DNA of 37,914 bases from Rhodospirillaceae bacterium. GTDB taxonomy: Bacteria > Pseudomonadota > Alphaproteobacteria > Rhodospirillales > Rhodospirillaceae. The translations under genes were made by a program, and so were the position numbers. The stretch spans positions 1 through 37,914 of the forward strand of contig JAIEMI010000303.1 in assembly GCA_019752235.1 (NCBI GenBank). Direction: 5' to 3'. The notes below the pieces were generated by a model. The model was not told where the DNA came from, did not search any database, and was given only the letters and a program-made list of their open reading frames with translations. Positions 4,018 to 28,157 of this stretch are shown here, piece by piece; position 1 is the stretch's first letter; every line of letters begins with the position of its first letter.

Positions 4018-5913
4018 CTAGCCGATGACCTTCCCGTCGGTGCGGCGTATCGCCACGACGCTCGGACGCGGCGGGACGCCCTCCTTGAAGTCCGGCCAGC
4101 TTTTCGGCGCGCTGGAAAAATGCGCGTCCTCGATATCGCCCGGATGCTGCACGGCGCAGAACAACGTCGTGCCGTCCGGCGTAAAGGCAGGTCCGGTCAC
4201 TTCCCCCCCATCGGGGCACCGGAAGAAGTGGCGCGTCAGCGCCCGGCCGGGTCCGTCCACATCCGTAGCCCAGATGCCGTCTGCGATGCCGAAGTCGTTG
4301 CCGCCGTCGGTGGTGATCCACAGACGCCCTTGGTTGTCGAACACCAGATTATCGGGACAGGCCAGCCAACCATTTTCCGTGATACCGGCGTTATAGGCCG
4401 TATCACTTTTGCGCTGCGCGGGATCGCCGCCTTTCAACAGAATGCGCCAGCGCGCGGTGGTGGCGGCATGATCGACCTCGCCGTTCGCGCCCATGGGCAT
4501 GATCTCCAGGATGTGACCGGCACGGTTGCGGGGGCGCGGGTTGGCGGCGTCCACCATCAGCGGCGTGCGCTTGGAATTCTTGGTCAAGGTAACGAAGACG
4601 CTGCCGGTTTTGGGATGGACCTCGATGTCCTCGGGACGGTCCATGGACGTGGCGCCCAGTTGCTTGGCGGCGCGGCGCGCATCGATCAGCACTTCCGCCT
4701 GACTGTCGAAGCCGTTGTCCTCACGCAGCGGTCCCTTGCCCCAGATCAGCGGGAGCCAGGTAATAGTGTTGTCGGCGTTAAAGCGCGCGGCATAGAGCGT
4801 GCCTTCGTCCAACAGCCCGGCATTGAGGTCTCGGGCTTTCGCGTCATAGGGCTTGGCGCTGACAAACTTGTAGATGAACTGAAACACTTCATCGTCGCCG
4901 AGGTAAGCGACAATGCGGCGGTCACGCGTGACGGCGATGGTGGCGCTTTCGTGCTTGAAGCGGCCCAGGGCCGTGCGCTTTACAGGCTTGGCCGCGGGGT
5001 CGAACGGATCGATCTCCACGATCCAGCCGAAGCGGTTAGGCTCGTTCGGCTCCTTCTCGACATTGAAGCGCTGATAGTAATTGTACCAGCCGTAATAGCG
5101 TTCGGTGCCGATGCCCATGGCCTGAAGGCCAAAAGTTTCGGTGGTCTTCTTGGGATCGCCGCCGAAGAAATGGTGAATATTCTCTTCGGCCAGCAGCACC
5201 GTGCCCCAGGGCGTATAGCCGCCCGCGCAGCCCGCCAGCGCGCCAAGGACATGTTTTCCGGTGGGATCCTCGGTGGTTTGCATGCGTTTGTGGCCTGCGG
5301 CAGGCCCGGAGATGTCGACCTCGGTCGTCGCCATGGTGCGGCGATTGAAAGAACTCGTGGGGTCCACGGTCCACGCGCCGCCTTTCAGGTCGATCTTCAC
5401 CACCGTGTGGCCGTGCGCGGCCATCTCAATATCCACGAGGTCTTTAGGCAGTTCGTCCGGGCGCGGCGCCGGGTAGCCCGGGAACATGAGAGCGTGGCGC
5501 GATGATTCATGATTGATGCACAACAAACCGCTGGTGGAAGACTTTGAACCGTAAGGCAGCGGCATGAAGGCGATGTAGTCGTTGTCATAGCCGAATTGCA
5601 GTTTCTGGGCCTCGGGCGTTTGCGTCGTCGGCGTCCAGGCGGGCGCGCCCTTCAGCACCGGATCGCCCCAACGCAGCAAAATCTGCGTGGTGTGTCCGGG
5701 CGATACATGGTGGTTGTCATCGAGACCGTGCGCGATCTCGGTAAAAGTCAGCGTCGAGGTTTTATCCTTAAGGTCTTTCACCACGGCCGGCGCGGGCGGC
5801 GGCGGTTCACCCGCCATGAGCGGACGGACCGCGGCGTCGGCGGCCACGGCGGCGCCCGCGGCCAAAACCGCACGGCGGGAGGGTGACGTTAAGGCAGGCG
5901 GTTTCTGGCTCAT
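4018..5913 (-). CDS. phoX: PhoX-family (DUF839) alkaline phosphatase, Tat-exported
   Basis: Tat-like N-terminus SRRAVLAAGAAVAADAAVRPLMA; FGYDNDYIAFMPL, LLCINHE, AHGHTVVKI, TPWGTVLLAEEN, DRPEDIEVHP, DNLVFDNQGRLWITTDGGND. Confidence 0.9.
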   Translation of the reverse strand: MSQKPPALTSPSRRAVLAAGAAVAADAAVRPLMAGEPPPPAPAVVKDLKDKTSTLTFTEIAHGLDDNHHVSPGHTTQILLRWGDPVLKGAPAWTPTTQTPEAQKLQFGYDNDYIAFMPLPYGSKSSTSGLLCINHESSRHALMFPGYPAPRPDELPKDLVDIEMAAHGHTVVKIDLKGGAWTVDPTSSFNRRTMATTEVDISGPAAGHKRMQTTEDPTGKHVLGALAGCAGGYTPWGTVLLAEENIHHFFGGDPKKTTETFGLQAMGIGTERYYGWYNYYQRFNVEKEPNEPNRFGWIVEIDPFDPAAKPVKRTALGRFKHESATIAVTRDRRIVAYLGDDEVFQFIYKFVSAKPYDAKARDLNAGLLDEGTLYAARFNADNTITWLPLIWGKGPLREDNGFDSQAEVLIDARRAAKQLGATSMDRPEDIEVHPKTGSVFVTLTKNSKRTPLMVDAANPRPRNRAGHILEIMPMGANGEVDHAATTARWRILLKGGDPAQRKSDTAYNAGITENGWLACPDNLVFDNQGRLWITTDGGNDFGIADGIWATDVDGPGRALTRHFFRCPDGGEVTGPAFTPDGTTLFCAVQHPGDIEDAHFSSAPKSWPDFKEGVPPRPSVVAIRRTDGKVIG

Positions 5914-6062
5914 GACGCTCGTTACATAAGGGTGCAAAGTCCTATGAATAATCGAGCCGCGCGTCGCCTGTATGAAACTTTGAATAAAGCGGCGGCCTAT
6001 CAGCTTCCGCCCATCGTGATTGTTTCATTAACTGACTTACAGCGCCCGGCCTGCCCGTTATC

Positions 6063-7169: not shown

Positions 7170-7313
7170 GAGAGGGTTTCGAACGCGGACGATGCTGCCG
7201 AAGCGGGGGAGCGAAAGCGATTAAGCGGGAGGTAATAGCCGCGATGTTTTTTCATGGGCTCATAACCTGGGATGTAATTGCCACCCATTCAGAGGCTCCT
7301 TAGACTGGCTGCC

Positions 7314-8093
7314 ATGACCCAAATGTCAGCTACCGTCGGCCAATTGATGCGGGCGTGGCGCGAGCAGCGCCGTATGAGTCAATTGGACTTAGCCAGCGAA
7401 GCCAATATCTCGCAGAAACACCTGAGTTTCATCGAGAGCGGCAGGTCAGCGCCTTCGCGCGACATGATCGTTCATCTGGCCGATCACCTTGACGTTCCTC
7501 TGCGCGAGCGTAATGCGCTGCTCCTTTCCGCCGGCTTCGCCCCGATCTATCGCGAGCGCGCCATCAATGATCCCGCTCTGGTGCGCGCACGCGCCACCGT
7601 CGAGCAGATCCTGCAAGCCCACGAGCCCTTCCCAGCCCTCGCCGTGGATCGCGGTTGGGACATGATCGCCACGAATGCACCCGTTACGGCACTGATCGGC
7701 GGCGTCGACTCCAGCCTACTCAAGCCGCCCGTGAACGTGCTCCGCCTCAGCCTCCATCCCAAGGGGCTCGCGCCGATGATCGCCAATCTCGCCGAATGGC
7801 GGCACCATCTGATCGAGCGCACGCGGAGACAAGTAAGATTGACGCGCGACCCCGCGCTGAAGACCCTGCTTGAGGAGATCAGCGCCTACCCGGCGCCGAC
7901 GGAAATGCTTACGACCGTGGTCGAGGATGAAATCGCGATTCCCTTGAAACTGCGCACGCCTCACGGAGTGCTATCGTTCTTCAGCACCGTCACGGTGTTT
8001 GGAACCGCTGTGGAGATCACGCTATCCGAGATATCGCTGGAGGCCTTCTATCCCGCCGACGACGCCACGGCGGCGGCCCTGCGCGCGCTATAG
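7314..8093 (+). CDS. XRE-family HTH transcriptional regulator with MmyB-like C-terminal ligand-binding domain
   Basis: LMRAWREQRRMSQLDLASEANISQKHLSFIESGRSAPSRDMIVHLADHLDVPLRERNALLLSAGFAP is the classic HTH_XRE/MmyB arrangement. Confidence 0.88.
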   Translation: MTQMSATVGQLMRAWREQRRMSQLDLASEANISQKHLSFIESGRSAPSRDMIVHLADHLDVPLRERNALLLSAGFAPIYRERAINDPALVRARATVEQILQAHEPFPALAVDRGWDMIATNAPVTALIGGVDSSLLKPPVNVLRLSLHPKGLAPMIANLAEWRHHLIERTRRQVRLTRDPALKTLLEEISAYPAPTEMLTTVVEDEIAIPLKLRTPHGVLSFFSTVTVFGTAVEITLSEISLEAFYPADDATAAALRAL

Positions 8094-8208
8094 CGAGGTG
8101 GTCGCGACGTAAATATGGTGAAAACGAAAAGAACGCGTTGTCATGCCTGATTGCAGCGCGCAATTTCCTTGCTGGCTATAGCCGACTTCCCGTAAAACGG
8201 GGGCCGAC

Positions 8209-8282
8209 GCGGGTGTAGCTCAATGGTAGAGCAGAAGCCTTCCAAGCTTACGACGAGGGTTCGATTCCCTTCACCCGCTCCA
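8209..8282 (+). tRNA. tRNA-Gly (TCC anticodon), CCA encoded
   Basis: GCGGGTG...CACCCGC acceptor stem, GCTC/GAGC D-stem, CTTCCAA anticodon loop, GGTTCGATTCC T-arm, terminal TCCA. Confidence 0.96.
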
Positions 8283-8385
8283 ATATTTTCAATGACTTAG
8301 ATGATACCCGTTAAGGTTAGTAGCCTTTTTTGGCACAATTTGGCACAAATCCTTCCGAACACCCCGGAAGCAAAGGTGCCGCCAA

Positions 8386-9453
8386 ATGTCCATCCAAGTC
8401 CGCGGTCCTCACCAGTTTCGCGTTCAGGTACGTCGCAACGGTGCCTACGTTAGTGAGACCTTCGAGACTATGCGCGAAGCCAAGGCCTGGGAACGGGTCA
8501 TGGAGGGAAAGGTCACTGGCGACGACGTTGTGGACCTTCGGGAAGCGAAGGCGACGACCCTCGACAAGGCGTGCGACTGGGCCATAGACAATGGTCATGC
8601 CGGCCCTGGCGCTAACGGCAAGAACCTGAACTCCAAATGGCGCTATTGGAAGACGACCGACCTCGCCAACTGGTCTATTGCCGGCATCCACGACTGGGAC
8701 CTCATAGAATGGCGTAGGAAGGTCCTGGATGAGGACAATGCCGAAGATGGCGAGGTCATAGGCCCCGAAGCGGACGGCGGTGCCCAGACCTGTATTCATC
8801 GCCTCAATGCCCTATCGAAGCTAATCCAAATATGGTCGCGGGCGCACAAGGTGCCTCTCGATAACCCCGTGAAACCGGGTGTCCGGCCGCCCAAGCCCGA
8901 CGGTCGCGACCGTCGCCTCTGGGAGGGCGAGGAATTGAAGCTGCTTAAAACGGCGAGAACGTCGTCTCGCCCCTGGCTCCGGGCCGCCGTCGCCATCTCC
9001 TTGGAGACCTGCCTCCGGCAGGGTGAACTGGCCGGTCTCGTTTGGCGCCGGGTCAAGCTCGACACGGAGTTCCCGCACGTCGACCTTCCGAAAACGAAGA
9101 ACGACCGGCCGCGGCGCGTTCCATTGTCCCGCCGCGCGGTGGCGGCGTTCCGGTCGCTGCGCATGAACAAAAAGCCTGATCCCGAAGCTACGGTTCTTAC
9201 CGTGGAAACCGCTCGCGGTGTGATCCACGCGTTCCGGGAAGTCATCACGGAGAAGGAGTTTCCTGGTCTTCGCTGGCACGATCTTCGGCATGAGGCGATT
9301 TCCCGTCTGTTCGAGCTGACTGACCTTCGGGATCACGAGATCATGACGATCACGGGGCACCTTACGCCCGCGATGCTCGCCAGATATACCCACCTGCGCG
9401 CAGACCGGCTGGGCGCCCGTCTCCGGGGTGGAAAACAAAATCGCGCCGCCTAG
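8386..9453 (+). CDS. int: Tyrosine recombinase / site-specific integrase
   Basis: 355 aa; catalytic motifs LETCLRQGELAGL (R), PKTKNDRPRRVPL (K), WHDLRHE (HxxR), GHLTPAMLARYTH (H...Y); immediately downstream of a tRNA. Confidence 0.93.
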   Translation: MSIQVRGPHQFRVQVRRNGAYVSETFETMREAKAWERVMEGKVTGDDVVDLREAKATTLDKACDWAIDNGHAGPGANGKNLNSKWRYWKTTDLANWSIAGIHDWDLIEWRRKVLDEDNAEDGEVIGPEADGGAQTCIHRLNALSKLIQIWSRAHKVPLDNPVKPGVRPPKPDGRDRRLWEGEELKLLKTARTSSRPWLRAAVAISLETCLRQGELAGLVWRRVKLDTEFPHVDLPKTKNDRPRRVPLSRRAVAAFRSLRMNKKPDPEATVLTVETARGVIHAFREVITEKEFPGLRWHDLRHEAISRLFELTDLRDHEIMTITGHLTPAMLARYTHLRADRLGARLRGGKQNRAA

Positions 9454-9805
9454 TAGGCCTTTTCGCGTTAAATTCGTTACTCATCGTGCGGCGCTTCATC
9501 AACACGTTGATATTGCTAAAACAGCGACGAGCCGAAAAAGGAGGTTTGAAGTGGGATCGAGGAAATCGGAGCAAATCGGCCCAAAGCAACTCCGGCAAAT
9601 CCACGTGCAGGTCATGGTGTTTGCGGATTAACTTCATGCGATTGACGACTTCCGGTTTACGAAGCGAATTCGTCGCGCGCCCGCCGTGCGCACGCTTCTA
9701 AAGCGCAGACTGTCCGCGCGCGGCAGTACAATAAACCCACCGATCTCGTGACTTCATGGCACGACAAAATAAGCCGGCGCTTCCACGCACTAACGCAGGC
9801 ACGGG

Positions 9806-11770
9806 CTACTTGCCGCGATAGGTGGGAATGAGCGGGGGATTCTTATTATCGTCGGGACGCATGTGCCGGGACACAACATCGACGCCGAGCTCCTTGAGCG
9901 GCGGCGCGAATTCCTTGTCGATCAAAATGATCTGATGGTCGCTGAGCTCACCAGCCTTGAGCTCATAGACCATGTTGTAAAATCCTTTGAACTGCGCGCG
10001 GTTTTCACGTTCGCTGATATTCTTCATTGGAGAATCGATGATGAGCACGTCGGGAAGTGGCGCCTTGATTCCAGCGGCTAGCCGGTGCACGGCAATGGCA
10101 AAGCAGGTCTTAAACAGCGTCTTCTTGCCGCCACTGCTAATCGTGGCAAACGAAGTGACCGTGGGATCTTCCGCAGTTGGCCCGAGAATTTCCGGGTAAA
10201 AGGTAGTGGCGGAAATCTCGACCTTGTCGGATCGCGTGATCCCGGGAATGCCGGACCGGACGAGACAATCGAGAAAATAGTCCTTCAGCAGCGTCAGGTT
10301 CGTGGCATCGCTTTCGGCCGCCGCACGGGCTTCTTTTAAGGCCGCACGCAACTTTTCCTCTTGGCCTTGGATGATGCCGATCCGCTCCCGCTGCCTGTCT
10401 AGTGTCTGCGGCAAACGCATCAGAGACTTCAGGTTTGCCGCTTCCTGCAAAAGGGCGGCGCGCTCGCGTTCCTTCGTCACCATGTTCGCCAGGTAAGCCG
10501 AGTCATAGCTAACGGAAAGTTCGTTTCTTTCCCGTTCAATACGGGCCTTCTCGCCCATAAGCGCGTCCCGGTCGCGACTGAGTTTTTCGCGCGCCTTGTC
10601 ATGGCGGACGATAATGTCACGTAATTCGGCAATGCGCGTCTTCGCGTCCCGTTCGATGATCGAGACATCCGCCTCAGCCGTGCGATCGGCATATTCCGTT
10701 TGGCCGCACACGGAACAGTCGCCTGGGGCACGGTCCGGAAGGAGTTGCGTGCACCGCGGACAACTGTGAAACGCAACGTTCGACAGGATGGCGCGTGCCG
10801 ACACGGATCGGTTCACTTTGATAAACAGCGTTTCGAGTTCATTCAAGTGCCGCTGATCGCGATCCTTGGCGGTGCGCAAATCGTCGAGGGCCGCATCGAT
10901 CTCGGCAATGAGCTTGCCGAGGCGAAGTGCTTCGGCGCGGAGGCCATCGACGGCGTGCGCCGTTGGCCTTTGAGCATCCGGCCTGCGCGCGACTACGATC
11001 TCGCCTTGAATATCAGCGGCCTTGGCTTCCAAGATCTCTGCCCGACCGAAAATTTCAATTTCCGAGCCGACGCCGACATCGCGCAGTGCCGCGCCGAGGC
11101 TTTCGACGCTCGCCTCCGTGGCTTGGCGTTCGCCTCTAAGCTGATCGAGCTCCGCTTCAATCTCGGCAACGCGTTCGTCATGGAAACCGATTACGAAACG
11201 CAGGACATCCCGGCTCTTGAGGCGTTTGAAAGGGTGAGCGTTCTCATCCAAGTGAAAGAACGAGCTGTCGATCTCATCTTGGTCCAAGTAGCAGTACCAC
11301 AGCAGATCGCGAATGGAGAGGCGGCCGCTTCCGCTGTCGTGCTTGACTTTACTGCGGCGGACACGCGGCGCCTTCACGCCGGAGAGCCAGAAAATGAGAT
11401 CCGACAGGTTCTCCACGCCGGTGCCGGGGATTTTCTCCCCCGCGGCGTCGCGCGCGGGCAAAATGACTTGCGTGGCGTCGTCGCCGTTGCCCCAGGAAGC
11501 GAAAACCTGGGACGCGTCCCGTTGACGTTCAATTTCTATATCGGCGTCTCTAAGCGAAATCGAAAGCTTGGCTCCCACGAACTCATTCTGCAGCGCGGGC
11601 GTGAGTTCGATGTTCCCGCCGAGACAATAGTCAATCAGCCGCGCGATGCTGGTTTTGCCCGCTCCCATCTGACCCCAAAAATAGTGCACATTGGCCAGGG
11701 GAATCGGAATGTCGCCTTGCCGCAGGCCAAGCGTAAGATCTTTTAACCGGAACTGCATTCCATTCCCCAC
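9806..11770 (-). CDS. SMC/Rad50-like ABC ATPase (LmuB/DdmC- or ABC-3C-type defence component)
   Basis: Walker A GQMGAGKTS, coiled-coil middle with CPRC-X11-CSVC hook, ABC signature-like ISSGGKKT, Walker B DVLIIDSP; last gene of a tightly packed three-gene operon. Start may be GTG 11770 or ATG 11758. Confidence 0.85.
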   Translation of the reverse strand: MGNGMQFRLKDLTLGLRQGDIPIPLANVHYFWGQMGAGKTSIARLIDYCLGGNIELTPALQNEFVGAKLSISLRDADIEIERQRDASQVFASWGNGDDATQVILPARDAAGEKIPGTGVENLSDLIFWLSGVKAPRVRRSKVKHDSGSGRLSIRDLLWYCYLDQDEIDSSFFHLDENAHPFKRLKSRDVLRFVIGFHDERVAEIEAELDQLRGERQATEASVESLGAALRDVGVGSEIEIFGRAEILEAKAADIQGEIVVARRPDAQRPTAHAVDGLRAEALRLGKLIAEIDAALDDLRTAKDRDQRHLNELETLFIKVNRSVSARAILSNVAFHSCPRCTQLLPDRAPGDCSVCGQTEYADRTAEADVSIIERDAKTRIAELRDIIVRHDKAREKLSRDRDALMGEKARIERERNELSVSYDSAYLANMVTKERERAALLQEAANLKSLMRLPQTLDRQRERIGIIQGQEEKLRAALKEARAAAESDATNLTLLKDYFLDCLVRSGIPGITRSDKVEISATTFYPEILGPTAEDPTVTSFATISSGGKKTLFKTCFAIAVHRLAAGIKAPLPDVLIIDSPMKNISERENRAQFKGFYNMVYELKAGELSDHQIILIDKEFAPPLKELGVDVVSRHMRPDDNKNPPLIPTYRGK

Positions 11771-11771
11771 C

Positions 11772-12344
11772 TCACGGCGTGATTTCCTCGCCCCACCGCA
11801 TGTTCACGATCTCCGGGACGGCCTCGTAGACAAATTCCTTCAAGCGCATGGCGGTCATCGCGCCGACGGCTTTGACAATGAGGTCGCTGCGGTCCTTCAA
11901 TTGGCCGAAATGCGTGTCCGTCCGGAAAGTGTCGGCTAACGATCTGCCGGCATCGGTCAATCCAATCTCGACCGTATTGCCCTCCAGGTTCAAGGCGACG
12001 AGGCCGCGGGCCGACAGGAGGCCTAACCACCGGCGATAGCGCGAGTCCCAGGGACCATAGCGGAACCGGATCATCTTCGTCTCCACTGATGTCCGCTCAC
12101 GGGGTTCAATCGCCAAGGCTTGAGCGCCTTTTCCAAGCTTCACCAGGGCCCGCTCGAGACAGGTCGGATATCGGAGCAGGAAATCCAACTTCGCGAGCTT
12201 GGTGATCCCCTCGATGGCCTTGGCTTTCGTCGCAGCGGTCGTCTTGCGCTCATCGGCACTGCGGAGAAGGATCAGGAGACGCCCGAGATGGAGTTCATCC
12301 GCGTTCTCCACTTCGGCGACAGCTCGGACAAGACGAAGGGACAT
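11772..12344 (-). CDS. Small middle component of a three-component ABC/SMC defence operon (ABC-3C MC or DdmB/LmuC-like)
   Basis: 190 aa, winged-helix-like features (FRYGPWDSRYRRWLGLLSARGLVAL...VEIGLTDAGRSLADTF); sandwiched between nuclease and ATPase genes with gaps of 13 nt and 1 nt. Confidence 0.7.
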   Translation of the reverse strand: MSLRLVRAVAEVENADELHLGRLLILLRSADERKTTAATKAKAIEGITKLAKLDFLLRYPTCLERALVKLGKGAQALAIEPRERTSVETKMIRFRYGPWDSRYRRWLGLLSARGLVALNLEGNTVEIGLTDAGRSLADTFRTDTHFGQLKDRSDLIVKAVGAMTAMRLKEFVYEAVPEIVNMRWGEEITP

Positions 12345-12357
12345 GACTGTGTCCCTC

Positions 12358-13665
12358 CTAAGACTGGTCGTCGATGGGGAAGCGCGCGCTCCACCAGACC
12401 CGGCATTCCCGCGTCAAAAGGGCAGCCACGCCGATCAGGCATTCGTAGGCGTGATGACCAAGTTCCGTTTTTCGGTCGACTTCCAGCTTACGCAGCCGGT
12501 CTTGCACGTCGATCAGCATGGCCGCCCCGTAGGGCGCCGTTTGCTGACTTACGCGCAGATGCGCCTCGCTGCACTCGCCTAACACTAGTTGCTCGACTTG
12601 CTGCAGAAGTTCGGGATAACGCTCCGGCCGCCGATGCGCGTCTTCGATGAGGCTGTATTCAGCGGCGCGCTCACGCTGTTGCATGTAATCGATTTGCTCG
12701 CCAAGCCCGCCACGCTCCAGCTTTTTTTCGAGCACCCTCCCAGTTTGTGTGACGCCGATTTTCAGTTCGGGCGACCCAGGGAATTTCAGTTGAGGTCTTG
12801 CGCCCGCCGCGGGCAACACCGTCGACATGACATCGATCGACACCCGTTTTTCACTGAGCGAAGGATCTACATCCGTCGCGTGGCCCGGCGCCCAGACGTG
12901 GCGGCGCGGTACCGTCACATGGAGCGATGATGCCCGGTAAATGATCGCAACGAGAGCGTCGCGGCACTCATTCAGTTGCTGCGCGTTGAGCGCTCCGTAA
13001 CCCTCGACATTCGCTAGGTGCTCGTTGGATAGAGCTGCATCGGATTCTTCGCGCGACGGTCCGTGCACCACGTGCATGCGCCGCAGGGCGTCGAACAAGG
13101 CGTCGGCAGCGCAGCCGCACTGAGCCTGGATATCCTGGAACGCTCTGAGGTACGGCTGCTGCAGTGCCCCGGCGGTCCCGCACCCCCGAATATGATTCAA
13201 AAACAGAGATGGACACCGCCCGCGACGGCGGTCGTTGCGGTTTGCATCTGTGACCGTGTCGCATTGCTTATTCGAGACAAAGAACAAGTCATGGACCTGA
13301 TCTTTGTAATCTGCCACGAGGTCGACGAAGCGCCCGATGGATTTGACGAGATCGTCATCCGCCAGCGTCCAGGCTCCGGACTCCGGCTTTGACGTCTTGA
13401 TTTGGTAGCCGTCGAATTTTCCATCGGACCGCTCGGCGAGGAAGTCCTCGTGCTGCTCGCACCAGATGGCCCTATACGGGCGTTCCCCGCGGCTTGCGGC
13501 TGCCAGCAACACCACACCGTAGCTGTGCTGGTAACGGTAATTTCTGGCCGTTGCATCTCCGGGGTCGGTCGTCGGCCGGGCGTCCACAGGACTAGGCTGT
13601 GCAGCGGCGTCCGCCTTTCGGCGCCCCGGCGTCCCTGTTTTTTTCGCTTTCCCCGCCACGTTCAT
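12358..13665 (-). CDS. DUF4297/Cap4-type restriction-endonuclease-fold effector
   Basis: ARNYRYQHSYGVVLLAAA...YRAIWCEQHEDFLAERSDGKFDGYQIKTSK: E...D-x-YQIKT PD-(D/E)xK-like active site; first gene of the operon. Confidence 0.75.
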   Translation of the reverse strand: MNVAGKAKKTGTPGRRKADAAAQPSPVDARPTTDPGDATARNYRYQHSYGVVLLAAASRGERPYRAIWCEQHEDFLAERSDGKFDGYQIKTSKPESGAWTLADDDLVKSIGRFVDLVADYKDQVHDLFFVSNKQCDTVTDANRNDRRRGRCPSLFLNHIRGCGTAGALQQPYLRAFQDIQAQCGCAADALFDALRRMHVVHGPSREESDAALSNEHLANVEGYGALNAQQLNECRDALVAIIYRASSLHVTVPRRHVWAPGHATDVDPSLSEKRVSIDVMSTVLPAAGARPQLKFPGSPELKIGVTQTGRVLEKKLERGGLGEQIDYMQQRERAAEYSLIEDAHRRPERYPELLQQVEQLVLGECSEAHLRVSQQTAPYGAAMLIDVQDRLRKLEVDRKTELGHHAYECLIGVAALLTRECRVWWSARFPIDDQS

Positions 13666-13845
13666 CCGGACGCCCCACTTACCTTCTTAATCATTGCTGG
13701 TGAGGTCGAGGGATGCAACCAGCGATTAAGTTGGATCTCCAGAAAGCCATCAATTGATACTTCGCCGAAACTAACCAGGCGCTAAAATCGCGTACCTGGA
13801 CAAAATCATCGCCGCCGTCAGCACAGGCACCAAGTGTCGACGGCC

Positions 13846-14688
13846 CTACGGTGCCGGCCGTCCCGGTTTTACAGACCGCGCCAAAATTTTGAGGTAGTCA
13901 CCAGTTATCATCCCATGCCCGGTGTCTAACAGGCGCCGCAGGCGACTGCGGCGCCAATCCGTGGCAAAGCCGGCGTCTCGAGTTCCGTTGTAAAGTTGGA
14001 TCGCAATGTCGGGCTGGCTGACGCCCGCGCGTTCCATGTCGATTGCTTTCAGCGCCAGCAGCCAACGTGAAGCGTAAGAATCAGTCGAAAACATTCGAGC
14101 CGGGAAGCGCTTTTGTTTTTGCAAAGCAACTAACCGTTCTACCGGCAAACGGCGCGCTCGTAGCGTCTCCGGCTCTGAGAGCACGTAAGCCAACCGAACA
14201 GGGCCATCGAGAACTGTGCCGCTGATGACGTGGATCTGTATTGAATGAAATCCATTTGAAAGCAAAACGTGCTCAGAGTCCGGCGCCTTTAATATCCTCA
14301 CTGCAAAATTCAAATCGCGGAAATCAAGCGCTTCTGAGCCGTGGCTTGCGGGCGCTACAGCCGCCACCGGAATGACGCTCGGATCGTATTCGGGCCGCCA
14401 AAAAATAGCGGCATTGGTATAGGGACGGGAATGCACTTCTGGAAAGCAGAGCCCCCATTCATCGTGATAGTGCGTTTGCAGCTCCAGCATTTCGAGATAC
14501 GGATGCTCACGGAGCATGTGTCGCGTTAGTCCAAGTGAATTGTTTACACCGCGAGCATACTCAGGGTTCCGTCGAAGCCATTCCCACGCCCAGCCAGCCG
14601 ACCCTAATCTCAACAATGCTTTTTCACTCAATTCTTGAAACAGATTGCGTTCCAAATTAGCCACGGTCTGCCCTCCTGGAGGGATCAT
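13846..14688 (-). CDS. DUF6499-DUF2285 protein, FseA-like ICE excision activator
   Basis: N-part AWEWLRRNPEYARGVNN...WGLCFPE...AIFWRPEYDPSVIPV (DUF6499-like) and C-part VRLAYVLSEPETLRARRLPVERLVAL...ALKAIDMERAGVSQPDIAIQLYN...WRRSRLRRLLDTGHGMITGDYLKIL (DUF2285-like). Confidence 0.8.
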   Translation of the reverse strand: MIPPGGQTVANLERNLFQELSEKALLRLGSAGWAWEWLRRNPEYARGVNNSLGLTRHMLREHPYLEMLELQTHYHDEWGLCFPEVHSRPYTNAAIFWRPEYDPSVIPVAAVAPASHGSEALDFRDLNFAVRILKAPDSEHVLLSNGFHSIQIHVISGTVLDGPVRLAYVLSEPETLRARRLPVERLVALQKQKRFPARMFSTDSYASRWLLALKAIDMERAGVSQPDIAIQLYNGTRDAGFATDWRRSRLRRLLDTGHGMITGDYLKILARSVKPGRPAP

Positions 14689-14807
14689 CCCGCCTATGTT
14701 TCATCGCGGGTCGAAACATACTACTTATAGTAGAATGCTACAGAAGGGAAGTTCTTTTAATATCTCGGTCAGGTTGTCGGAATCCTAAGTAAGCGGAAGC
14801 AGCGGTC

Positions 14808-15320
14808 ATGGGCGAGGTTATTCGTTTTCCACTTCAGCATGCGCGCGAGCGCGGTTTGATGTGCCCACCACTTAAAATCCATTTCCCCGCGTTGTACCGG
14901 ACGGTGCAGACCGTGACACAGGCGGACCTCGATGCTTTGAAAGCGCCGGGCCCGCCGCTCAATGGCTTCGTCGACTACGCCATCAATCCGAATCTAAGCT
15001 ATTTCGGTCACGTTGAACGCCAGCGCACTACCCACGTTATCGACCCGCGATTTGACTCTCTCGTCTTGCGTCATCATGCGCAGTCCGAACTCGCAATCGC
15101 TTATTTGACAGCGTTGTCCGATGTTGCGACCGAGGAAATTGATAATCCGGTGATCGGGACGGACAGCGGCACTTTTACGCTTGTCCGGCGTCCTACGAGG
15201 AAAACTTGGCCCGGCCCTTTGGTAATCTACAAAGCAGAATTCAAGACCGCTGAGGATGAACGTGATTGGACCCTCATCATCGGGCCAGATGGCCAAGAAA
15301 TCTGCGAACTCGACCTGTAA
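14808..15320 (+). CDS. Conserved-looking hypothetical protein, divergent from FseA-like gene
   Basis: 170 aa ORF starting MGEVIRFPLQHARERG; no recognised domain. Confidence 0.6.
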   Translation: MGEVIRFPLQHARERGLMCPPLKIHFPALYRTVQTVTQADLDALKAPGPPLNGFVDYAINPNLSYFGHVERQRTTHVIDPRFDSLVLRHHAQSELAIAYLTALSDVATEEIDNPVIGTDSGTFTLVRRPTRKTWPGPLVIYKAEFKTAEDERDWTLIIGPDGQEICELDL

Positions 15321-15461
15321 TCACGTTCGCGGGCGGGCACGTCTGCGATAAGAAAGAAACCCGCGATTTCAAAGCCCTCACTAATTCTGCGGGAGCAAAT
15401 CGTTACCGGCGTGAACGGCTCCACTCTAGCGCGGCTATCATTCTCCGGTTTCGCATAGGAA

Positions 15462-16043
15462 TTAACGCGCTCGCATCGTCTTAAGCGCCCGGTGAGACGC
15501 GAAAGGAAGGATGAGCGCGAGTGCAATCGCGTCCGGCCAGCTCTCGCCGGTCAGCCAGACGCCAACGGCGCCGGCGAGAACGGCGGCAGCACTGATCATA
15601 TCGTTCCGTGCACCACACCATGCCGCCTTCATTTTGGCGTTTCCCACTCGCTGGTGATAAAGCAGAACGAAGGCCACGGCATTGACGATGAAGAATAGCC
15701 CTCCCACCGCGCCCATCACCCTCGCATCTGGTACAATGCTGTAAATATGGTTCCAGACCGCCACGCCAAAGGTCCAACAGCACAGCAAGAGGGCAAACAC
15801 GCCGGCCATCGTGTTCAGCGTGCCCTCCTGCCGGGCAGACCACCGCGGCTTTATGACGCTTTCTGTCACGGTCTTCGTGTTGACCGTTTCCAACGCGTCG
15901 ATCTGAAGTGACGCGGACCCGGCAATTATGCCTGCGCCAAGTTCGATAATAAATGCCGCCTGCATGACGGTAAAAGCCATCCACAGCAGTTTGCGATTTT
16001 TGGCGCGTTCAAGTTTCCATCGTTGTGCACGAGCCTTTCCCAT
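15462..16043 (-). CDS. Divergent small cation-transporter-like (CDF-related) membrane protein
   Basis: 193 aa, multiple TM segments; MKAAWCGARNDMISAAAVLAGAVGVWLTGESWPDAI aligns with MRSVWLCSRNDAIGN-type small CDF proteins, but the TM2 metal motif is altered (LQIDALETVNTKTV). Confidence 0.7.
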   Translation of the reverse strand: MGKARAQRWKLERAKNRKLLWMAFTVMQAAFIIELGAGIIAGSASLQIDALETVNTKTVTESVIKPRWSARQEGTLNTMAGVFALLLCCWTFGVAVWNHIYSIVPDARVMGAVGGLFFIVNAVAFVLLYHQRVGNAKMKAAWCGARNDMISAAAVLAGAVGVWLTGESWPDAIALALILPFASHRALKTMRAR

Positions 16044-16063
16044 TCGGTCCTAATCCTTCGTTC

Positions 16064-18604
16064 TTAAGCGCTGGATTGGATCGGGTCGCGATAGGCCAGA
16101 AGCCGCAAGGCATTTACCACAACAAGAATCGTTGATCCTTCATGCAGCAGAACCGCCATCCCGATTTTGAGGCCAAAAACCGTCGCCGGAATCAGGAATA
16201 GGACCATGCCAAGGCTCACCCACAGATTTTGACGGATGATGCTGCGTGTGCCGCGGCTCAGTCCCACGGCAAAGGGAAGTGTGCGAAGATCGTCCGCCAT
16301 GAGCGCGACATCTGCGGTCTCCAAGGCGACATCAGAACCCGCCGCGCCCATCGCAATGCCGACGGTCGCGTTTGCCATCGCAGGCGCGTCATTGACGCCG
16401 TCGCCGACCATGGCGACGGGGCCGTGTTTCATAAGGCGCTGAATCGTGGCGACCTTATCTTCCGGCATCAAATTTCCGTATGTCTTGCCTACACCCACCT
16501 CGTTACCAACAGCTTCAGCGACGAGGTTGTTGTCACCCGTAAGCATGATGATGTCTTTCACGCCGAGCTTGCGAAGTGTTGCGAGGACCGACTTTGCTGC
16601 GTCACGTGGCTTGTCCATGAGGCCAATCGCACCCAGGTAGCGTTTGCCCTTTGTGACCAGCATCACCGTACGGCCTCGAAGCTCCAGCATATTGGCTGTA
16701 CTCTTCATTTCCGACGTGACGGCCTCGCGCAGGTTCTCACTGAATAGCGCGAGTTTGCCGACATAGACCTCCTCAGATCCAACCATCGCAGTAACGCCGC
16801 GGCCTGTGACTGCGCGGACGTTATCCGCTGTGGGTATCTGTACGGTCTTATCGAGTTGCTCAGTCCCATCGCGCACGACAGCGGCTGCAAGGGGGTGATC
16901 ACTCAACCGCTCAACGGAGATGGCGGCAGCCAGCAACTCCTGCGCCTCGACGCCCGTCGCGGGCACTACATCAACCACACGGGGTTTGCCTTCGGTCAAT
17001 GTGCCCGTTTTGTCGAACGCGATAGCCGTGAGTGAGCCGAGGTTTTCAAGAGGACCGCCACCTTTAACAAGCACGCCACCACGGGCTGCACGGGCGACGC
17101 CGGCCAAAACGGCACTCGGGGTGGCGATTGCGAGTGCGCACGGGCTTGCCGCCACAAGGACCGCTAAGGCCCGATAAAAGCTGTCACGGAAAGGCTCATC
17201 AATGATCGTCCAGGCGAACAGCAGAATGCCAACGAAAGCAAGGATGACAGGTACGAAGATTCGCTCAAACTTGTCGGTGAAGCGTTGTGTCGGGGACTTT
17301 TGCGCCTCGGCTTCACTCACCATCTTCACAACGCGGGACAGCGTGTTATCGGATGCCAGGCGCGCAACATAGATTTCGAGAGCGCCGGCACCATTGATGG
17401 TGCCTGCATAAACTCGGCTTTCGGCTGGCACTGCGTCAGGACGGGTTGCTGCGGCTTTGGCATCGCCCACGGCAACTTTATCGACAGGGATGCTCTCGCC
17501 CGTGATGGGCGCCTGGTCAACGCTACTGGCGCCTTTGAGAACAAAACCGTCCGCCGGAATGCGACCGTTTGGCCGAGCGATAACCGTGTCGCCTACCACT
17601 AATTCCTCGACCGAAACCTCAATCGGTTTGCCATCGCGAATGACCTCGGCCTTGCGCGGCGCGATCTGGCCCAATGCTTCAATCGCTTTCCGAGCCTTGC
17701 CCATGGCAAAGTTTTCGAGCGAATGGCCAATGCTGAAAAGAAAGAGAAGGAGAGCGCCTTCGGCCCATTCGCCTAAAACTGCTGCGCCGGCCGCAGCGAC
17801 CAACATCAATGAATCAATTTCCAGGCTTTTGCGCTGAAGATTTTCGATAGCCTCCCGGAGCGTGTAAAAGCCGCCGAAGAAATATGAGGCAACGTAGAGC
17901 GCAAGAGGAATCCAGGCGGGAGCAGCGAAGAATTGTTGCAGGACGTAGCCAAGCGCAACGCATACACCGCTCAGGATCGCAAAATACAACTCAGCGTTCT
18001 TGCCGAGCATGCCGCCGTGCGCGTGGTCGTGGCCGCGCTTGTCCTTGCCATTCTCACCGTGGCTATGTTGGTGGTCGTCGCTATCGCCGTGGTCATGCTT
18101 CTCACGGCTGGGGTGATGTGTATGGCCCTCAAGAGCGAGCGTCTCTGCCTCACTCACGGTGACATTAAGTTTAGCGAGGGCGTCCCGGATAGCCCGCTCC
18201 GTAATCTGGCTTCTATCAAACTCGATACGAATGACGCCGCTGAGAGCCGCATCCGCTTGAAGAACCCCCGGCAGGCCGGCCAGGCTGTCAGCGATCGTAC
18301 GTACCCGTCTTTGATGGCGCAGGCCATCGACATGCCAAAGAATGTGGCCGAAGCGTTGGCTAATCTGCGCTCCGGTACTATGCACAATCTCACGCAGGCG
18401 CGAGAGTTGGATTTTGTTGGGGTCATAGTGGACACAAAGTTTGGCGGGCTCATTGGCCGATGCTGCAATGACGTGGACACGGTCCACGCCGGGGCGGCCG
18501 TTCAGATCATTCAGGAGACGTCCGACACAAGCGTCCGCCTCGTCCGGCGCATTGGGCAGGATTAACGGAAGGTTGAGCTGCAAACGGGGGGTGTCGGTGC
18601 TCAC
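16064..18604 (-). CDS. P1B-4-type heavy-metal ATPase (Zn/Co/Cd class)
   Basis: 846 aa; [61 protein letters not shown]-terminal HMA-like regions lacking CxxC and a His/Asp-rich linker. Confidence 0.93.
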   Translation of the reverse strand: MSTDTPRLQLNLPLILPNAPDEADACVGRLLNDLNGRPGVDRVHVIAASANEPAKLCVHYDPNKIQLSRLREIVHSTGAQISQRFGHILWHVDGLRHQRRVRTIADSLAGLPGVLQADAALSGVIRIEFDRSQITERAIRDALAKLNVTVSEAETLALEGHTHHPSREKHDHGDSDDHQHSHGENGKDKRGHDHAHGGMLGKNAELYFAILSGVCVALGYVLQQFFAAPAWIPLALYVASYFFGGFYTLREAIENLQRKSLEIDSLMLVAAAGAAVLGEWAEGALLLFLFSIGHSLENFAMGKARKAIEALGQIAPRKAEVIRDGKPIEVSVEELVVGDTVIARPNGRIPADGFVLKGASSVDQAPITGESIPVDKVAVGDAKAAATRPDAVPAESRVYAGTINGAGALEIYVARLASDNTLSRVVKMVSEAEAQKSPTQRFTDKFERIFVPVILAFVGILLFAWTIIDEPFRDSFYRALAVLVAASPCALAIATPSAVLAGVARAARGGVLVKGGGPLENLGSLTAIAFDKTGTLTEGKPRVVDVVPATGVEAQELLAAAISVERLSDHPLAAAVVRDGTEQLDKTVQIPTADNVRAVTGRGVTAMVGSEEVYVGKLALFSENLREAVTSEMKSTANMLELRGRTVMLVTKGKRYLGAIGLMDKPRDAAKSVLATLRKLGVKDIIMLTGDNNLVAEAVGNEVGVGKTYGNLMPEDKVATIQRLMKHGPVAMVGDGVNDAPAMANATVGIAMGAAGSDVALETADVALMADDLRTLPFAVGLSRGTRSIIRQNLWVSLGMVLFLIPATVFGLKIGMAVLLHEGSTILVVVNALRLLAYRDPIQSSA

Positions 18605-18664
18605 GGAATCAATCCTTACAAACAGCGTTTTGGCCAGGTATTCGAGCCTGAAAAGGCATGCGTC

Positions 18665-19207
18665 CTAATAGTGAGAATTGAGCGGGTTACCTGGTTGTCG
18701 GCGTCCGCGCAAACTGGCGGCAGGACTTCGCCAGAAACGCGGCATAGCCGACGAAAATTCGGCAACCGCCTGCTCGACACTACTGTCGACGTCGTTCTGG
18801 GTTGGCTCGGAAATGTCAGATTGCGTCCGCGTTATCGAAATCACGGTCGCCAGGGCGTGACTAAAACGAGGCCGAATATCTGACGCAACTTCTCGGGTGT
18901 ATGGGGCTAAGCGCTGCGCATTGATACAAACCCTCCATTTGGCCTCGCGCAGGCTGGCTTCTTCACTATTACTAGCGACCGCCGCACGATACTCCGCCAC
19001 GCTTCGTTCGAAGTGCTTCCTCTGGGTGTATGGATCTCGGAACGTCCCTACCTGCCGGTTGACAGATGTGACGGGAGGATTTCCACAGGGATTTGGCGAG
19101 TTGGCACATGCACTCGCGACAAACACTAAGCCAACAACTAAGACGACGCCGGTACGTCGTGCAATTCTGCTTGTGCGCTTCTCTCGCTCGATCTGTTTTT
19201 CTAACAT
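18665..19207 (-). CDS. Putative lipoprotein/exported protein of unknown function
   Basis: 180 aa, TM/signal VVLVVGLVFVASAC (lipobox-like); lies in line with the efflux operon. Confidence 0.55.
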   Translation of the reverse strand: MLEKQIEREKRTSRIARRTGVVLVVGLVFVASACANSPNPCGNPPVTSVNRQVGTFRDPYTQRKHFERSVAEYRAAVASNSEEASLREAKWRVCINAQRLAPYTREVASDIRPRFSHALATVISITRTQSDISEPTQNDVDSSVEQAVAEFSSAMPRFWRSPAASLRGRRQPGNPLNSHY

Positions 19208-19406
19208 TTGCAGTTTCCTTTCTGGCCCGAGAAATCAGCGTTGTCTCTCTCTCAATGCCGGTGTTGCACAGCACTAATCGGAAAAGCAGGCGGAGGTTCC
19301 AGAGACTTGGCCGGGGTGAGCCAAGGCTTGGGGGCGCTCTCCGAAACCTCCGCGTTTGTCCGCACTTCTGGCGGACGAAGTATCGTTGTGGCAACGCCGC
19401 CACGTC

Positions 19407-19751
19407 TTAGGGCTTAGCCGCGGGTGGACCGTCCGTGCCACCGTCGATGGGCAATACTTGCTCAACCGGACTGACATAAATCCAGCCGGAGATTTGAGTT
19501 CCGACATGTCCGGTCTTGCGAATGATTTGCGCGACTTCGCTCACCTTCTCGTCGGCGACAACGAGCGACAACCGCGCCTCGGATATCACCAATGCCGTAG
19601 AGTCGCGGGAGAAGTCGCTTTCATCCTCCGTGATCGGCTTCAACATGCCTTTCACATCTTGAAGGGTGATGTTGTCGTAACCCGCCTCGGCAAGAGCTTG
19701 CACAACCTTCGGCGTCCGAACGTGATGCAGAAACGCTTTCACCAGTTTCAT
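19407..19751 (-). CDS. PII-superfamily protein of the metal-efflux-linked (PII-NG-like) group
   Basis: 114 aa; MKLVKAFLHHVRTPKVVQALAEAGYDNITLQDVKG...ARLSLVVADEKVSEVAQIIRKTGHVGTQISGWIYVSPVEQVLPI matches the PII fold pattern; no Tyr-51-type GAEY T-loop. Confidence 0.8.
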   Translation of the reverse strand: MKLVKAFLHHVRTPKVVQALAEAGYDNITLQDVKGMLKPITEDESDFSRDSTALVISEARLSLVVADEKVSEVAQIIRKTGHVGTQISGWIYVSPVEQVLPIDGGTDGPPAAKP

Positions 19752-19754
19752 GAG

Positions 19755-19997
19755 TCACTCCTTGATATACAGATCGACTACCGCCGCCGTGGCGCGGTAG
19801 TCAGCCCACAAGCGCGGTCGCATTGCTAGATTCCAGAGGCGCCGTCTGTACGGTGCTGGCTTCGGGTTGGCGCCGGCAAGCCATTCGAGCTGCGGGCAAC
19901 CACCGGGCGGTACTCCGTCACGCTTTTCGAAGATCAGAGCAACAGGTGTACATCGCGAAACGCTGATTCGCTCTCGCTCCGTTTTTTCCTGCGACAT
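19755..19997 (-). CDS. Small hypothetical protein encoded 3 nt upstream of the PII-like gene
   Basis: 80 aa ORF; its stop (TGA) overlaps the ribosome-binding region of the PII gene (AAGGAGTGACTCATG). Confidence 0.45.
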   Translation of the reverse strand: MSQEKTERERISVSRCTPVALIFEKRDGVPPGGCPQLEWLAGANPKPAPYRRRLWNLAMRPRLWADYRATAAVVDLYIKE

Positions 19998-20048
19998 AGA
20001 AGTATCCCTAATCTGCTCCAGAAAATGGCATCCTGAATTTGACGATCT

Positions 20049-20774
20049 TCACTTCTTACGGGGGTCGGCCTGCGGACAATCGGACGGCATGGACGCGATC
20101 AAATCTCGCGTGCGTTGATAGGCGTCTGTACTGAGAAGCCGGACGTACTCCGACTTCTTTCCAATCAGCGAATAGACAGAGATAATTGATTTGCCGTCGG
20201 CACCTAGAAAGACGACGCCGTGAAGCATTTTCCCGTCGTTGCGAGCAAGCGTAATGGCATGAATCGCGGCAATAGAACTGGGATGGAAATGCCCTCTGAG
20301 CCCAGATCGTTCCGTCTCGATCTGCACCTCTCCGTTACTGGACGTAACTTTCGTGCCGATCGGACCAGAAAATTCCACAATGTTATCGTTAGGGAGAGGA
20401 ATAGCGACGATCGGTCTGTCCCATCCCGCTAACGATTCCCATACTTTTGCAAACGCTTGGCCATCGGAGGTGCCGACACTCTGGCTTGGAGGCAGCCCGG
20501 TAATGACTGTTTCTTCAGGCACCCCCAGCATCTTTCCAATTACGAACGGGGGCGCCCCCGGCTGTCGAATGTAAGCCTCCCGTATCTCCGTGGTCTGCTC
20601 GGGCGTCGCGCAAAGCGATGTTGCTGCTTTCGTCACGTCAGTAAACGCAACGAGGGAAGTTACTGCGATCAAAGAGCTCCAAGAAATCCTCGACAACATC
20701 GGACGCCAAGCCTTGGACGCAAGCGCGTCATCGTAGCGCCGCCTCCTAAGCCTGGATGTCCGATTTTCCCTCAC
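20049..20774 (-). CDS. Exported ChuX/HutX-like (heme-utilisation fold) protein
   Basis: LGVPEETVITGLP...FAKVWESLAGWDRPIVAIPLPNDNIVEFSGPIG...GLRGHFHPSSIAAIHAI resembles HutX/ChuX; hydrophobic N-terminal segment; start overlaps czcA stop by 4 nt. Confidence 0.6.
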   Translation of the reverse strand: MRENRTSRLRRRRYDDALASKAWRPMLSRISWSSLIAVTSLVAFTDVTKAATSLCATPEQTTEIREAYIRQPGAPPFVIGKMLGVPEETVITGLPPSQSVGTSDGQAFAKVWESLAGWDRPIVAIPLPNDNIVEFSGPIGTKVTSSNGEVQIETERSGLRGHFHPSSIAAIHAITLARNDGKMLHGVVFLGADGKSIISVYSLIGKKSEYVRLLSTDAYQRTRDLIASMPSDCPQADPRKK

Positions 20775-23700
20775 GAGAGCGACCCCTGCGGCTGGGTCGC
20801 GCCTGCGCCGCTCTCAGCTTTAGTGCGGTAAGCCATCCGGTACAGACCTGGAAGGACCAACAGCGTCAGCAGGGTTGAGGAGATGATGCCGCCGATCACG
20901 ACCGTCGCGAGGGGCCGTTGCACCTCAGCGCCGGTCCCGATGTTAAGCGCCATCGGAAGAAACCCAAGCGCCGCGACCAACGCCACCATGAGGATAGGAC
21001 GCAACCTCATCATCGCACCCGCGCGGATCGCATCCTCCACCGCATCGCCTTGAGCCAAGCGTTCACGGAATGCCGAAACCATCATCACACCTGTCAGGAC
21101 CGCGACTCCCGAAAGGGTGATAAAGCCGACTCCTGCCGTGATTGAGAGCGGTATCCCGCGCAGCACCAGCGATATGACGCCGCCCGTTAAAGCCAACGGG
21201 ACGCCACTGAATACCAGCGCCGCGTCCTTCGCCGAGCCGAAGGTCATCATCAGAAGGGCGAAGATCATCGCCAAGGTGACTGGCACCAGCAGGGTCAAAC
21301 GTTGAGTGGCCGATTGAAGTTGCTCAAACGTGCCGCCGTAGCTCACCCAATAGCCGGTCGGGAGTTTGATTTTCTCATCGATCTTTTGGCGGACTTCAGT
21401 CACAAAACCGCCCAGGTCGCGGCCCCGCACGTTCGACGACACCACAAGACGCCGTTTGCCGTTTTCGCGGCTGATCTGGTTTGGACCCGGCGCAATCTTT
21501 AAGCTCGCGACCTCGCCCAGGGGCACGAAGCCACCCTGAACCAACGGTATAGGAAGGCGTTCGAGCGTCCTCAGATCGGAACGCATATCTTCGGGAAGAC
21601 GCACCACGAGCGCAAAGCGGCGGTCGCCCTCGAAGATTTGGCCCGCTTCCTCACCGCCGGTGGCGGCGGAAAGAACATCCTGGACGTTAGAGATATTGAG
21701 GCCCAAGCGATATAGCGCCGCACGGTTGGGCTCGATCGAAAGGACTGGCAGGCCGGCTACCTGTTCGACCTTAACGCCATCCGCTCCGGGTACGGTATTC
21801 AGAACGGCCGCGATCGCATTCCCAGTTGCGAGCAACTGTTCGAGATCGTCACCATAGATCTTGATCCCAAGGTCCGAACGCACGCCGGAGATCAGTTCAT
21901 TGAATCGAAGCTGAATGGGTTGGCTGATTTCAAAGGCATTACCGGGTAGGTTTTCCAAACGCTCTTCAATGTCCTTAGCAACATCCGCCTTGGATTTGTT
22001 CGGGTCCGGCCAGTCCTTCTTGTCCTTCAGCATGACATAGCCGTCCGAAATACTGGGCGGCATGGGATCAGTTGCAACTTCAGCAGTTCCGACGCGCGAG
22101 AAGTAGGTTTTTACTTCCGGCACTTCCATGACCGCCTTTTCAAGCTGAAATTGCATGTCGAGGGACTGCGTCAGGCTGGTGCCGGGGATGCGTAGGGCTT
22201 GAACGGCCAAGTCGCCCTCATCCAGTTGCGGTATGAATTCTGAGCCCATCCGGGAGGCGATAAAACCACACAGCACCACGAACACTACCGCACCCGCCAC
22301 AAACAGAACACGCAACCGCAGCGCCGATTCAAGCACCGGTGCGTAGATGCTCTTGGCGGTCCGCACGATGAGATTGTCCTTCTCATCTATCTTTTTTGTG
22401 AGCAGAAGTGCCACAGCGGCCGGGACAAAGGTCAGTGAGAGGATCAAAGCCGCAACCAGCGCCATGATGACCGTGATCGCCATCGGTTGGAACATTTTGC
22501 CTTCCACACCCGTGAGGGCGAGGATCGGCAAGTTCACGAGGATCACGACCAACACACTGACCAAGCTGGGCGTAAACACTTCTCGGGTTGCTGCGAAGAC
22601 TGTCTGGAGACGCTCATCGAGAGACAAGAGGCGTCCCATGCGATGTTGGCGTGTAGCCAGCGCGAGAATGCAGTTTTCGACGATAATCACAGCTCCGTCG
22701 ACAATTAGGCCGAAATCCAGCGCACCGAGACTCATGAGGTTTGCGCTTACTTTCGTCTCGACCATTGCGGTCATGAGCATCAACATGCTCAAGGGGATCA
22801 CCGCCGCAGCCAGAAGCGCGGCTCTGACGTTTCCCAGCATCAATAAGAGGACGACAACAACAAGGATCGCGCCTTCCACAAGATTTTTCTGGACGGTCGC
22901 GATTGTCTTTTCCACCAAGACGGTGCGGTCGTAGACGGCCTCTGCGGTTATGCCTTCAGGCAAAGTCTTGTTAATTTCTATGAGCTTTGCCGATACCGCG
23001 CCTGATACTGTCCGGCTATTGCCGCCGAGAAGCATCACCGCTGTTCCCAGGACGGTTTCTTCACCGTCGCGTGTTGCCGCGCCCGTGCGAAGCTGCTTGC
23101 CGTACGCCACTTCGGCGACGTCGCGGACGGTAATGGGAACTCCGCCTCGGTGCGTAACGATGATCCGTTCAATCGCCGGCATGTCTGTGACCTGGCCCGG
23201 CGAACGGATCAGATATTGTTCACCGTTCCGTTCTATATAGCCCGCGCCGATGTTGGCGTTGTTCTTCTCTATCGCCTTAACGATGTCGTCAAAGCTCAAG
23301 CCATAGGACAGTAGGCGCCCCGGATCGGGCGTGACGTGAAACTGCTTTTCGAAGCCGCCAATCGTGTTGACTTCCGTTACGCCCGGCACCTGGCGCAACT
23401 GGGGACGGATGACCCAATCCTGCAGCGTCCGGAGCGCGGTGGCGTCGTATTTGCTGCCGTCAGGCTGCCGCGCCTTTTCGTCGGCATGGACGGTGTACAG
23501 GAAGATTTCACCAAGACCCGTAGCGATCGGTCCCATTTCCGGCTCGACGCCACCCGGCAACTGACTCTTGGCCTGTTGAAGACGTTCGTTGATGAGGTTC
23601 CGCGCGAAGAATATGTCTGTCCCGTCGGCAAAGACGACGGTCACCTGAGACAGGCCGTATCGCGAGAGAGAGCGGATGTACTCGACGGCGGGCAAACCCG

Positions 23701-23920: not shown

Positions 23921-23969
23921 GGCTGTACTTCCTTAAGCGAGGGAATCGCAAAGTGAGAGGATGCGGCAC

Positions 23970-26227: not shown

Positions 26228-26314
26228 GCAAGAACCGTCTCGAAAAGAGAGGGAGACAGACCAGACCCCAAAGGCGGAATCTGGCCACGAGAGGGCTTTA
26301 AGCCCAGTTCTTGC

Positions 26315-26692
26315 TTAGATTTTCGGAGGGCGTACGGGTGGGTTCACGCCAAACTGCGTAAACCCGCGCGGCGGGGCCTGGGCGACAATGGACGCTAAAA
26401 CGTCAGGGAATGCGAATGACAGGCCAATGATGGCAGAGGCCATTCCGTGACACGGGCAAGAGCAAGTCAGTCCGCTACATGCGCCGTTGTCGCATTCGTT
26501 GGCAGATGTCGCTGTATAAGAAATGCCGGTATGGCGCAGCTCAACCGACGGGCTGGTACTGGCGAATTGTACGGAGCACGTGGCGACGTTGTCTTCCCGC
26601 TGGGGCACACTGGCGCGGGCGTCTGGGCCCGCTGCGAATTGCAGCAGGAGTCCCAAAACGACGAGCGCCATGATGCGGCCCAGGAGATTCAT
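26315..26692 (-). CDS. Small exported Cys-rich protein preceding czcCBA
   Basis: 125 aa, signal peptide MNLLGRIMALVVLGLLLQFAAGPDARA, ECDNGACSGLTCSCPCHG cluster. Confidence 0.6.
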   Translation of the reverse strand: MNLLGRIMALVVLGLLLQFAAGPDARASVPQREDNVATCSVQFASTSPSVELRHTGISYTATSANECDNGACSGLTCSCPCHGMASAIIGLSFAFPDVLASIVAQAPPRGFTQFGVNPPVRPPKI

Positions 26693-26997
26693 ATTTCTTA
26701 TTAAGCACCTTTACCGTTGTTTCGCAACTCTGGCTCTGCGAGGGGCAGAGTCGCAATCGCGGACTATGGAATTTGTAATCTCGCCACCACGAAAGAAACC
26801 ACACGGATCATTTTCCGGCATGTCCCTGTAAATTGAGAAAATTCTCGAGAATTTTGTCCTTGTGACCATGGCGCCCGCGCTCGGCAGGCGGTCAAGTCAT
26901 AATAAAGTGAACACCCCGATTCCGATGCGCAAAGGCCGATCTCTCCATAAAGGGAATTTTGCCTCCCCGTCTTCCGAATCCAACGGCGAGTTACACA

Positions 26998-27189: not shown

Positions 27190-27236
27190 CTAGACGGGAC
27201 AAACATCTTGCACGTACGGCGGAGTAAGGCGCGTCG

Positions 27237-28151: not shown

Positions 28152-28157
28152 CGTTTG

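Follow-up and report, generated by a model that had tools for sequence, protein, structure and literature searches.

A very probable Cap4-armed type II Lamassu operon on a metal-resistance island at tRNA-Gly in a Rhodospirillaceae bacterium

Type II Lamassu, DdmABC and the ABC-three-component (ABC-3C) systems form a single superfamily under different names (PMC10586767, PMC12409362). In the described members, unusual DNA such as hairpins or ends is sensed by LmuB; LmuA is then set free and tetramerises, and its Cap4 domain cuts DNA indiscriminately, so that the infected cell is killed or the plasmid is lost (PMC10586767, PMC12409362, PMC12904381). A type II Lamassu different from the one presented here protected E. 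coli against phages (PMC8565338). DdmABC of Vibrio cholerae and LmuACB of Salmonella are similar to the present locus in gene order, in the Cap4 effector, in the Rad50-like sensor of about 650 amino acids and in the fold of LmuA. These two systems contain an MC3 (DUF6521) middle component and a DUF3732 LmuB, whereas our locus has another class of LmuC and an LmuB from another clade.

In our study, a stretch of 37,914 nucleotides (the window) was analysed, in which three open reading frames follow one another in the same direction on the minus strand from 13665 to 9806, in the order LmuA-LmuC-LmuB and with no internal stops (Table 1). Together they very probably constitute a complete type II Lamassu (ABC-three-component) operon whose effector is a Cap4 nuclease and which forms part of the cargo of a metal-resistance island integrated at tRNA-Gly. 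An earlier note on this DNA had described the same order of nuclease, 190-aa protein and Rad50-like ATPase beside an integrase, and all of this has been confirmed. Its comparison with Lamassu, DdmABC or ABC-3C was also right, because all of these belong to one superfamily; the PADLOC check it had proposed gave one Lamassu model per gene (LmuB 2.8e-73, LmuC 2.2e-13, LmuA 1.5e-17), and the Pfam Cap4 domain and the predicted fold of LmuA agree with it. Gaps of 13 nt and 1 nt had been reported between the genes. The former, from LmuA to LmuC, is correct, and the latter holds only if LmuB starts at GTG 11770. Since LmuB of the relatives starts with M-x-F, and the ATG at 11758 of the window (preceded by GGTGGGGA) is the equivalent position, this ATG is the likelier start and the second gap is probably also 13 nt.

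Table 1. Positions of the operon, of two sites within LmuB and of the integration features in the window.
Feature	Position	Strand	Description
LmuA	12358..13665	-	Cap4-type PD-(D/E)xK nuclease effector, 435 aa; C-terminal half putatively for Lamassu docking/oligomerisation
LmuC	11772..12344	-	Middle component, 190 aa; predicted winged-helix fold, distantly MC4-related
LmuB	9806..11770	-	Rad50/SMC-like ABC ATPase, putative sensor, 654 aa from GTG at 11770
LmuB tetracysteine apex CPRC...CSVC, residues 337-355	10706..10762	-	Four Cys invariant, 34/34
LmuB Walker B D579-S580-P581	10028..10036	-	Ser replaces catalytic Glu; S/T in 34/34 of clade
tRNA-Gly(tcc)	8209..8282	+	ARAGORN; likely attachment site of the island
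Tyrosine integrase of the carrying island	8386..9453	+	Phage_integrase 3.9e-16; not part of the defence system

None of the three proteins was named above cut-off by NCBIfam, and single-sequence searches of the PDB gave no match for any of them, profiles being required. Although the defence family is known, the branch to which the operon belongs is widespread and only partly recognised by standard domain models; an unassigned annotation becomes a specific and testable defence system. A promoter scan gave nothing above chance. A RovC/DUF2285-like regulator gene (13846-14688), present directly upstream on the same strand, was rejected as a fourth component as it has no homologue beside the operon in 38 relatives.

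LmuA matches the Pfam Cap4_nuclease domain (2.2e-19), which is found in 31/32 LmuA proteins of the clade. The YQIKT motif highlighted earlier is located at residues 87-91, and E70, E73, D74, Q88, K90 and T91 are near-invariant in 32 homologues, in agreement with a PD-(D/E)xK site of the E...QxK type. The AF2 model of LmuA (pLDDT 87) finds its best PDB fold matches by Foldseek in the Lamassu LmuA tetramers 9hr5 (5.8e-8) and 9nxx (1.5e-7); Lamassu LmuA 9hqx and 9ny1 are also matched, and CBASS Cap4 6vm5 ranks after them. The first of these entries is the Salmonella LmuA, entitled 'nuclease tetramer bound to DNA duplex'. The possibility that the first protein would not resemble PD-(D/E)xK nucleases was raised earlier and is contradicted by both the Pfam and the fold searches. 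The fold match spans 423 alignment columns and therefore includes the C-terminal half, which had been called divergent. However, the TM-scores are globally low (0.24-0.44 among the Lamassu matches), perhaps due to a different orientation of the domains, and the match therefore backs the family and not the details. The similarity of LmuA to the DdmA-type profile (hhalign 80.5%) covers the nuclease and mid-region only, and the Pfam ABC-3C C-terminal models match 0/32 LmuA proteins of the clade.

LmuB exceeds the cut-off of Pfam AAA_23 (3e-6) and contains the Walker A motif GQMGAGKT, the signature SSGGKKT and the Walker B motif LIIDSP. Its profile matches the solved Lamassu LmuB chains 9hqu and 9ny5, and it aligns with DUF3732-type LmuB over 595 columns (hhalign 99.6%, 5.8e-25). 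Walker A, the SSGGKKT-type signature and the four cysteines (CPxC...CxxC) are kept in 34/34 window-type LmuB proteins. The cysteines are arranged as paired CxxC motifs, CPRC 337-340 and CSVC 352-355, and may form a zinc site at the tip of the coiled coil. The hook cysteines mentioned in the earlier note are thus present, but the classical Rad50 zinc hook, in which one CxxC per protomer is shared by two protomers, was rejected because LmuB of the window has two invariant CxxC motifs, i.e. four cysteines, per protomer. The coiled-coil ABC ATPase with a cysteine apex is common to Rad50/SbcC, from which the window differs in this second CxxC, in having no Mre11/SbcD and in the absence of the catalytic Glu. 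DUF3732-type LmuB, on the other hand, has one CPxC or none at the apex. MC5-type LmuB proteins (L076, L078 and L079) were also seen to have two CxxC motifs, and in L078 the Walker B Glu is replaced by Asn.

At this position, 56 LmuB proteins of several clades have Ser/Thr in 47 cases, Gln in 8 (all of the DUF3732 type), Asn in 1 and Glu in none; the window has DSP whereas the DUF3732 type has DQP. A review describes Gln as the general replacement of this Glu in LmuB (PMC10586767), while Ser/Thr is the commoner in our survey. The lack of Glu in all 56 proteins supports a sensor which would bind ATP but hydrolyse it poorly. Loss of ATP hydrolysis is suggested as a rule for the Lamassu sensors.

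LmuC matches Pfam MC4 below cut-off (0.0011), and none of the Pfam MC models reaches its curated cut-off for the window LmuC. The window-type LmuC set as a whole has a best E-value of 5.6e-5 to MC4, which is estimated to be still below the 28.1-bit cut-off. The PADLOC LmuC model, by comparison, is matched by 33/33 LmuC proteins of the clade, the window included. The AF2 model (pLDDT 86) gives only weak wHTH fold matches, and the invariant residues include R22, D54-F55 and P98-W99. MC2, MC3 and MC4 were each rejected as the class of LmuC, as none is backed by a score above the curated cut-off or by a convincing profile match over the full length. With MC3 the profile comparison is as low as 0.8% (hhalign), and neither profile nor model shows likeness to MC3-type LmuC; therefore the activation interface may differ from that of DdmABC. 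The winged-helix middle protein and the four-cysteine tip may be the places where this branch works differently.

A genome scan with LmuB yielded 38 loci (32-59% identity) from about ten phyla, and in 35 of them homologues of LmuA and LmuC lie directly upstream of LmuB with the order kept. At 24-72% protein identity and over so many phyla, this conservation is well above chance. The exceptions are L031, at a contig edge, and L008 and L036, in which LmuA and LmuC are replaced or lost. L008 comes from a Caulobacterales MAG; here (7261-8004) the place of LmuA-LmuC is taken by an anti-restriction gene of the ArdC type (ArdcN 5.5e-41 plus zincin), and LmuB is left alone. The last residues of this gene are those of LmuC, as if recombination had occurred at a short stretch common to the two, or the contig had been misassembled. 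In L036 (Aquimarina, 7593-9944) a truncated KAP-type P-loop NTPase precedes LmuB in one fusion protein, and neither LmuA nor LmuC is present in the vicinity.

In a tree of 55 LmuB sequences, to which comparison Lamassu loci had been added, the window-type, MC2, MC3/DUF3732, MC5 and type I proteins form one branch each, all with SH-aLRT 100; the middle-component class was taken from one representative per group, and the branches are long, leaving the branching order between groups uncertain. The nearest LmuB outside the clade belongs to an MC4-type Lamassu (ABC-3C, Pfam PF20290; L112), which scores 185 bits where the next one reaches 80. The bona fide MC4 protein of L112 is related to the clade LmuC profile (7e-10). 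That system differs from ours in a single CPIC, in an LmuB of at most 23% identity to the clade and in the effector, which, read by eye, resembles an alpha/beta hydrolase in place of Cap4. The DdmABC sub-branch proper was rejected for the window since there is no MC3 middle protein, no DUF3732 match in the window's own genome, a DSP Walker B and a separate clade. On the sequence comparisons, the operon belongs to a separate LmuB clade, a Cap4-armed chassis distinct from DdmABC, because of the LmuB tree, the sub-cut-off relation of LmuC to MC4 and the LmuA without a Pfam ABC-3C C-terminal match. The earlier remark on the divergence of the middle protein and of the C-terminal half of the nuclease thus stands, but its view that no subtype could be assigned does not, as a separate subfamily is recognised. 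Cap4-Lamassu is built on two or more LmuB-LmuC chassis that are only distantly related, and this lets the generality of the solved DdmABC mechanism be tested. We suggest tentatively, and at somewhat less than even chances, that the branch is an undescribed chassis of some ten phyla, having a self-contained four-cysteine zinc tip, a winged-helix LmuC related to MC4, a Cap4 acquired separately from DdmABC and an ATPase which, like every LmuB examined, has no catalytic Glu and would act as a one-shot ATP-binding latch.

CBASS Cap4, a DUF4297-SAVED nuclease, has the nuclease domain in common with LmuA, whereas the partners in the window are LmuC and LmuB. Membership in CBASS was rejected, as no CD-NTase or SAVED domain is present in the three proteins or in the next gene upstream.

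The anatomy of the operon fits the Lamassu model of sensing by LmuB and release of LmuA. By analogy with the solved Lamassu complexes, a dimer of LmuB together with LmuC would hold LmuA silent until LmuB encounters foreign DNA of aberrant form, such as ends, hairpins or replication intermediates. ATP binding would then lock the head of LmuB, and the released LmuA would assemble into a tetramer. This tetramer would cut DNA without distinction, leading to cell death or plasmid loss before the invader spreads. Complex formation, trigger, tetramer activation and phenotype are all carried over to the window operon from these systems.

The operon occupies a variable slot between the tRNA-Gly integrase and the metal-resistance genes. 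The tRNA-Gly and a related integrase are also present in two congeners, L108 and L109. In L108, the tRNA-Gly and integrase (71.6% DNA identity) are followed almost immediately by metal-resistance genes that match 28710-31450 and 32381-37815 of the window, the shared part including a metal P-type ATPase, CusF and a multicopper oxidase. The 19-kb segment at 9454-28709 of the window, which holds the Lamassu operon and zinc/cadmium-type efflux genes, is missing from L108 (4727-5481). L108 and the window form a natural with/without pair at the tRNA-Gly island, in which L108 keeps the copper cargo. Window-type LmuB was found in 0/18 congeners and 0/42 other relatives, and in the wider class LmuB was matched in 2/385 genomes, one being the window's own. 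Such a distribution, with LmuB missing from all 60 relatives and the slot variable in comparison to L108, is typical of cargo that moves horizontally. The homologues are therefore not the isolated housekeeping genes that had been considered earlier, in view of this absence and of the order kept in 35/38 loci. A second attachment site was not found within the window; the search of its own genome gave one other tRNA-like copy with 2 mismatches. Among viral contigs there is a single weak, non-orthologous LmuB match, without CxxC and with the Walker B VDR, and carriage by phages is therefore not supported.

This mobile setting also suits an anti-plasmid or element-exclusion module which would mainly serve the island by stabilising it or excluding rival elements, phage defence being secondary. 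The operon directly follows the integrase, in a cargo slot that varies, homologues are located on plasmids of Rhizobium, Ensifer, Hymenobacter and Spirosoma, the ArdC anti-restriction gene of L008 stands in the LmuA-LmuC position, and DdmABC eliminates plasmids (PMC12409362). However, most of the homologues come from free-living bacteria, on ordinary genome contigs, and the sequence gives no separation of such a role from general defence, so we regard this reading as rather unlikely.

Far less probable is a decayed or non-functional remnant riding with the metal-resistance cargo. The carrying genome is a fragmented assembly of 79.5% completeness and LmuA and LmuC are lost in some relatives (L008, L036), but all three reading frames are full-length and all conserved catalytic and structural residues are retained. 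We give marginally less weight still to a DNA-repair operon of the SbcCD/Mre11-Rad50 kind, in which LmuB would process DNA ends with LmuA as its nuclease. The Rad50-like LmuB with its AAA_23 match would suit such a role, and a title in the reference list of PMC12409362 proposes an origin of Lamassu from DNA repair machinery. However, the nuclease is Cap4 and not Mre11, and the presence in none of the 60 relatives and the location on an island are against it. Moreover, repair Rad50 keeps the catalytic Walker B Glu, which LmuB has lost. A Lamassu defence operon carried by the island is hence the preferred reading.

In the window, cation-efflux/RND heavy-metal efflux genes adjoin the Lamassu operon at 15462-26227, and the same is seen in the Brevundimonas/Caulobacterales loci L006, L007, L008, L009, L021 and L026. 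The efflux genes of the window and of these loci are only 29-48% identical, and the pairing of defence and metal cargo is recurrent. A PhoX-type alkaline phosphatase gene (4018-5937, 6.6e-151) lies outside the island, to the left of tRNA-Gly.
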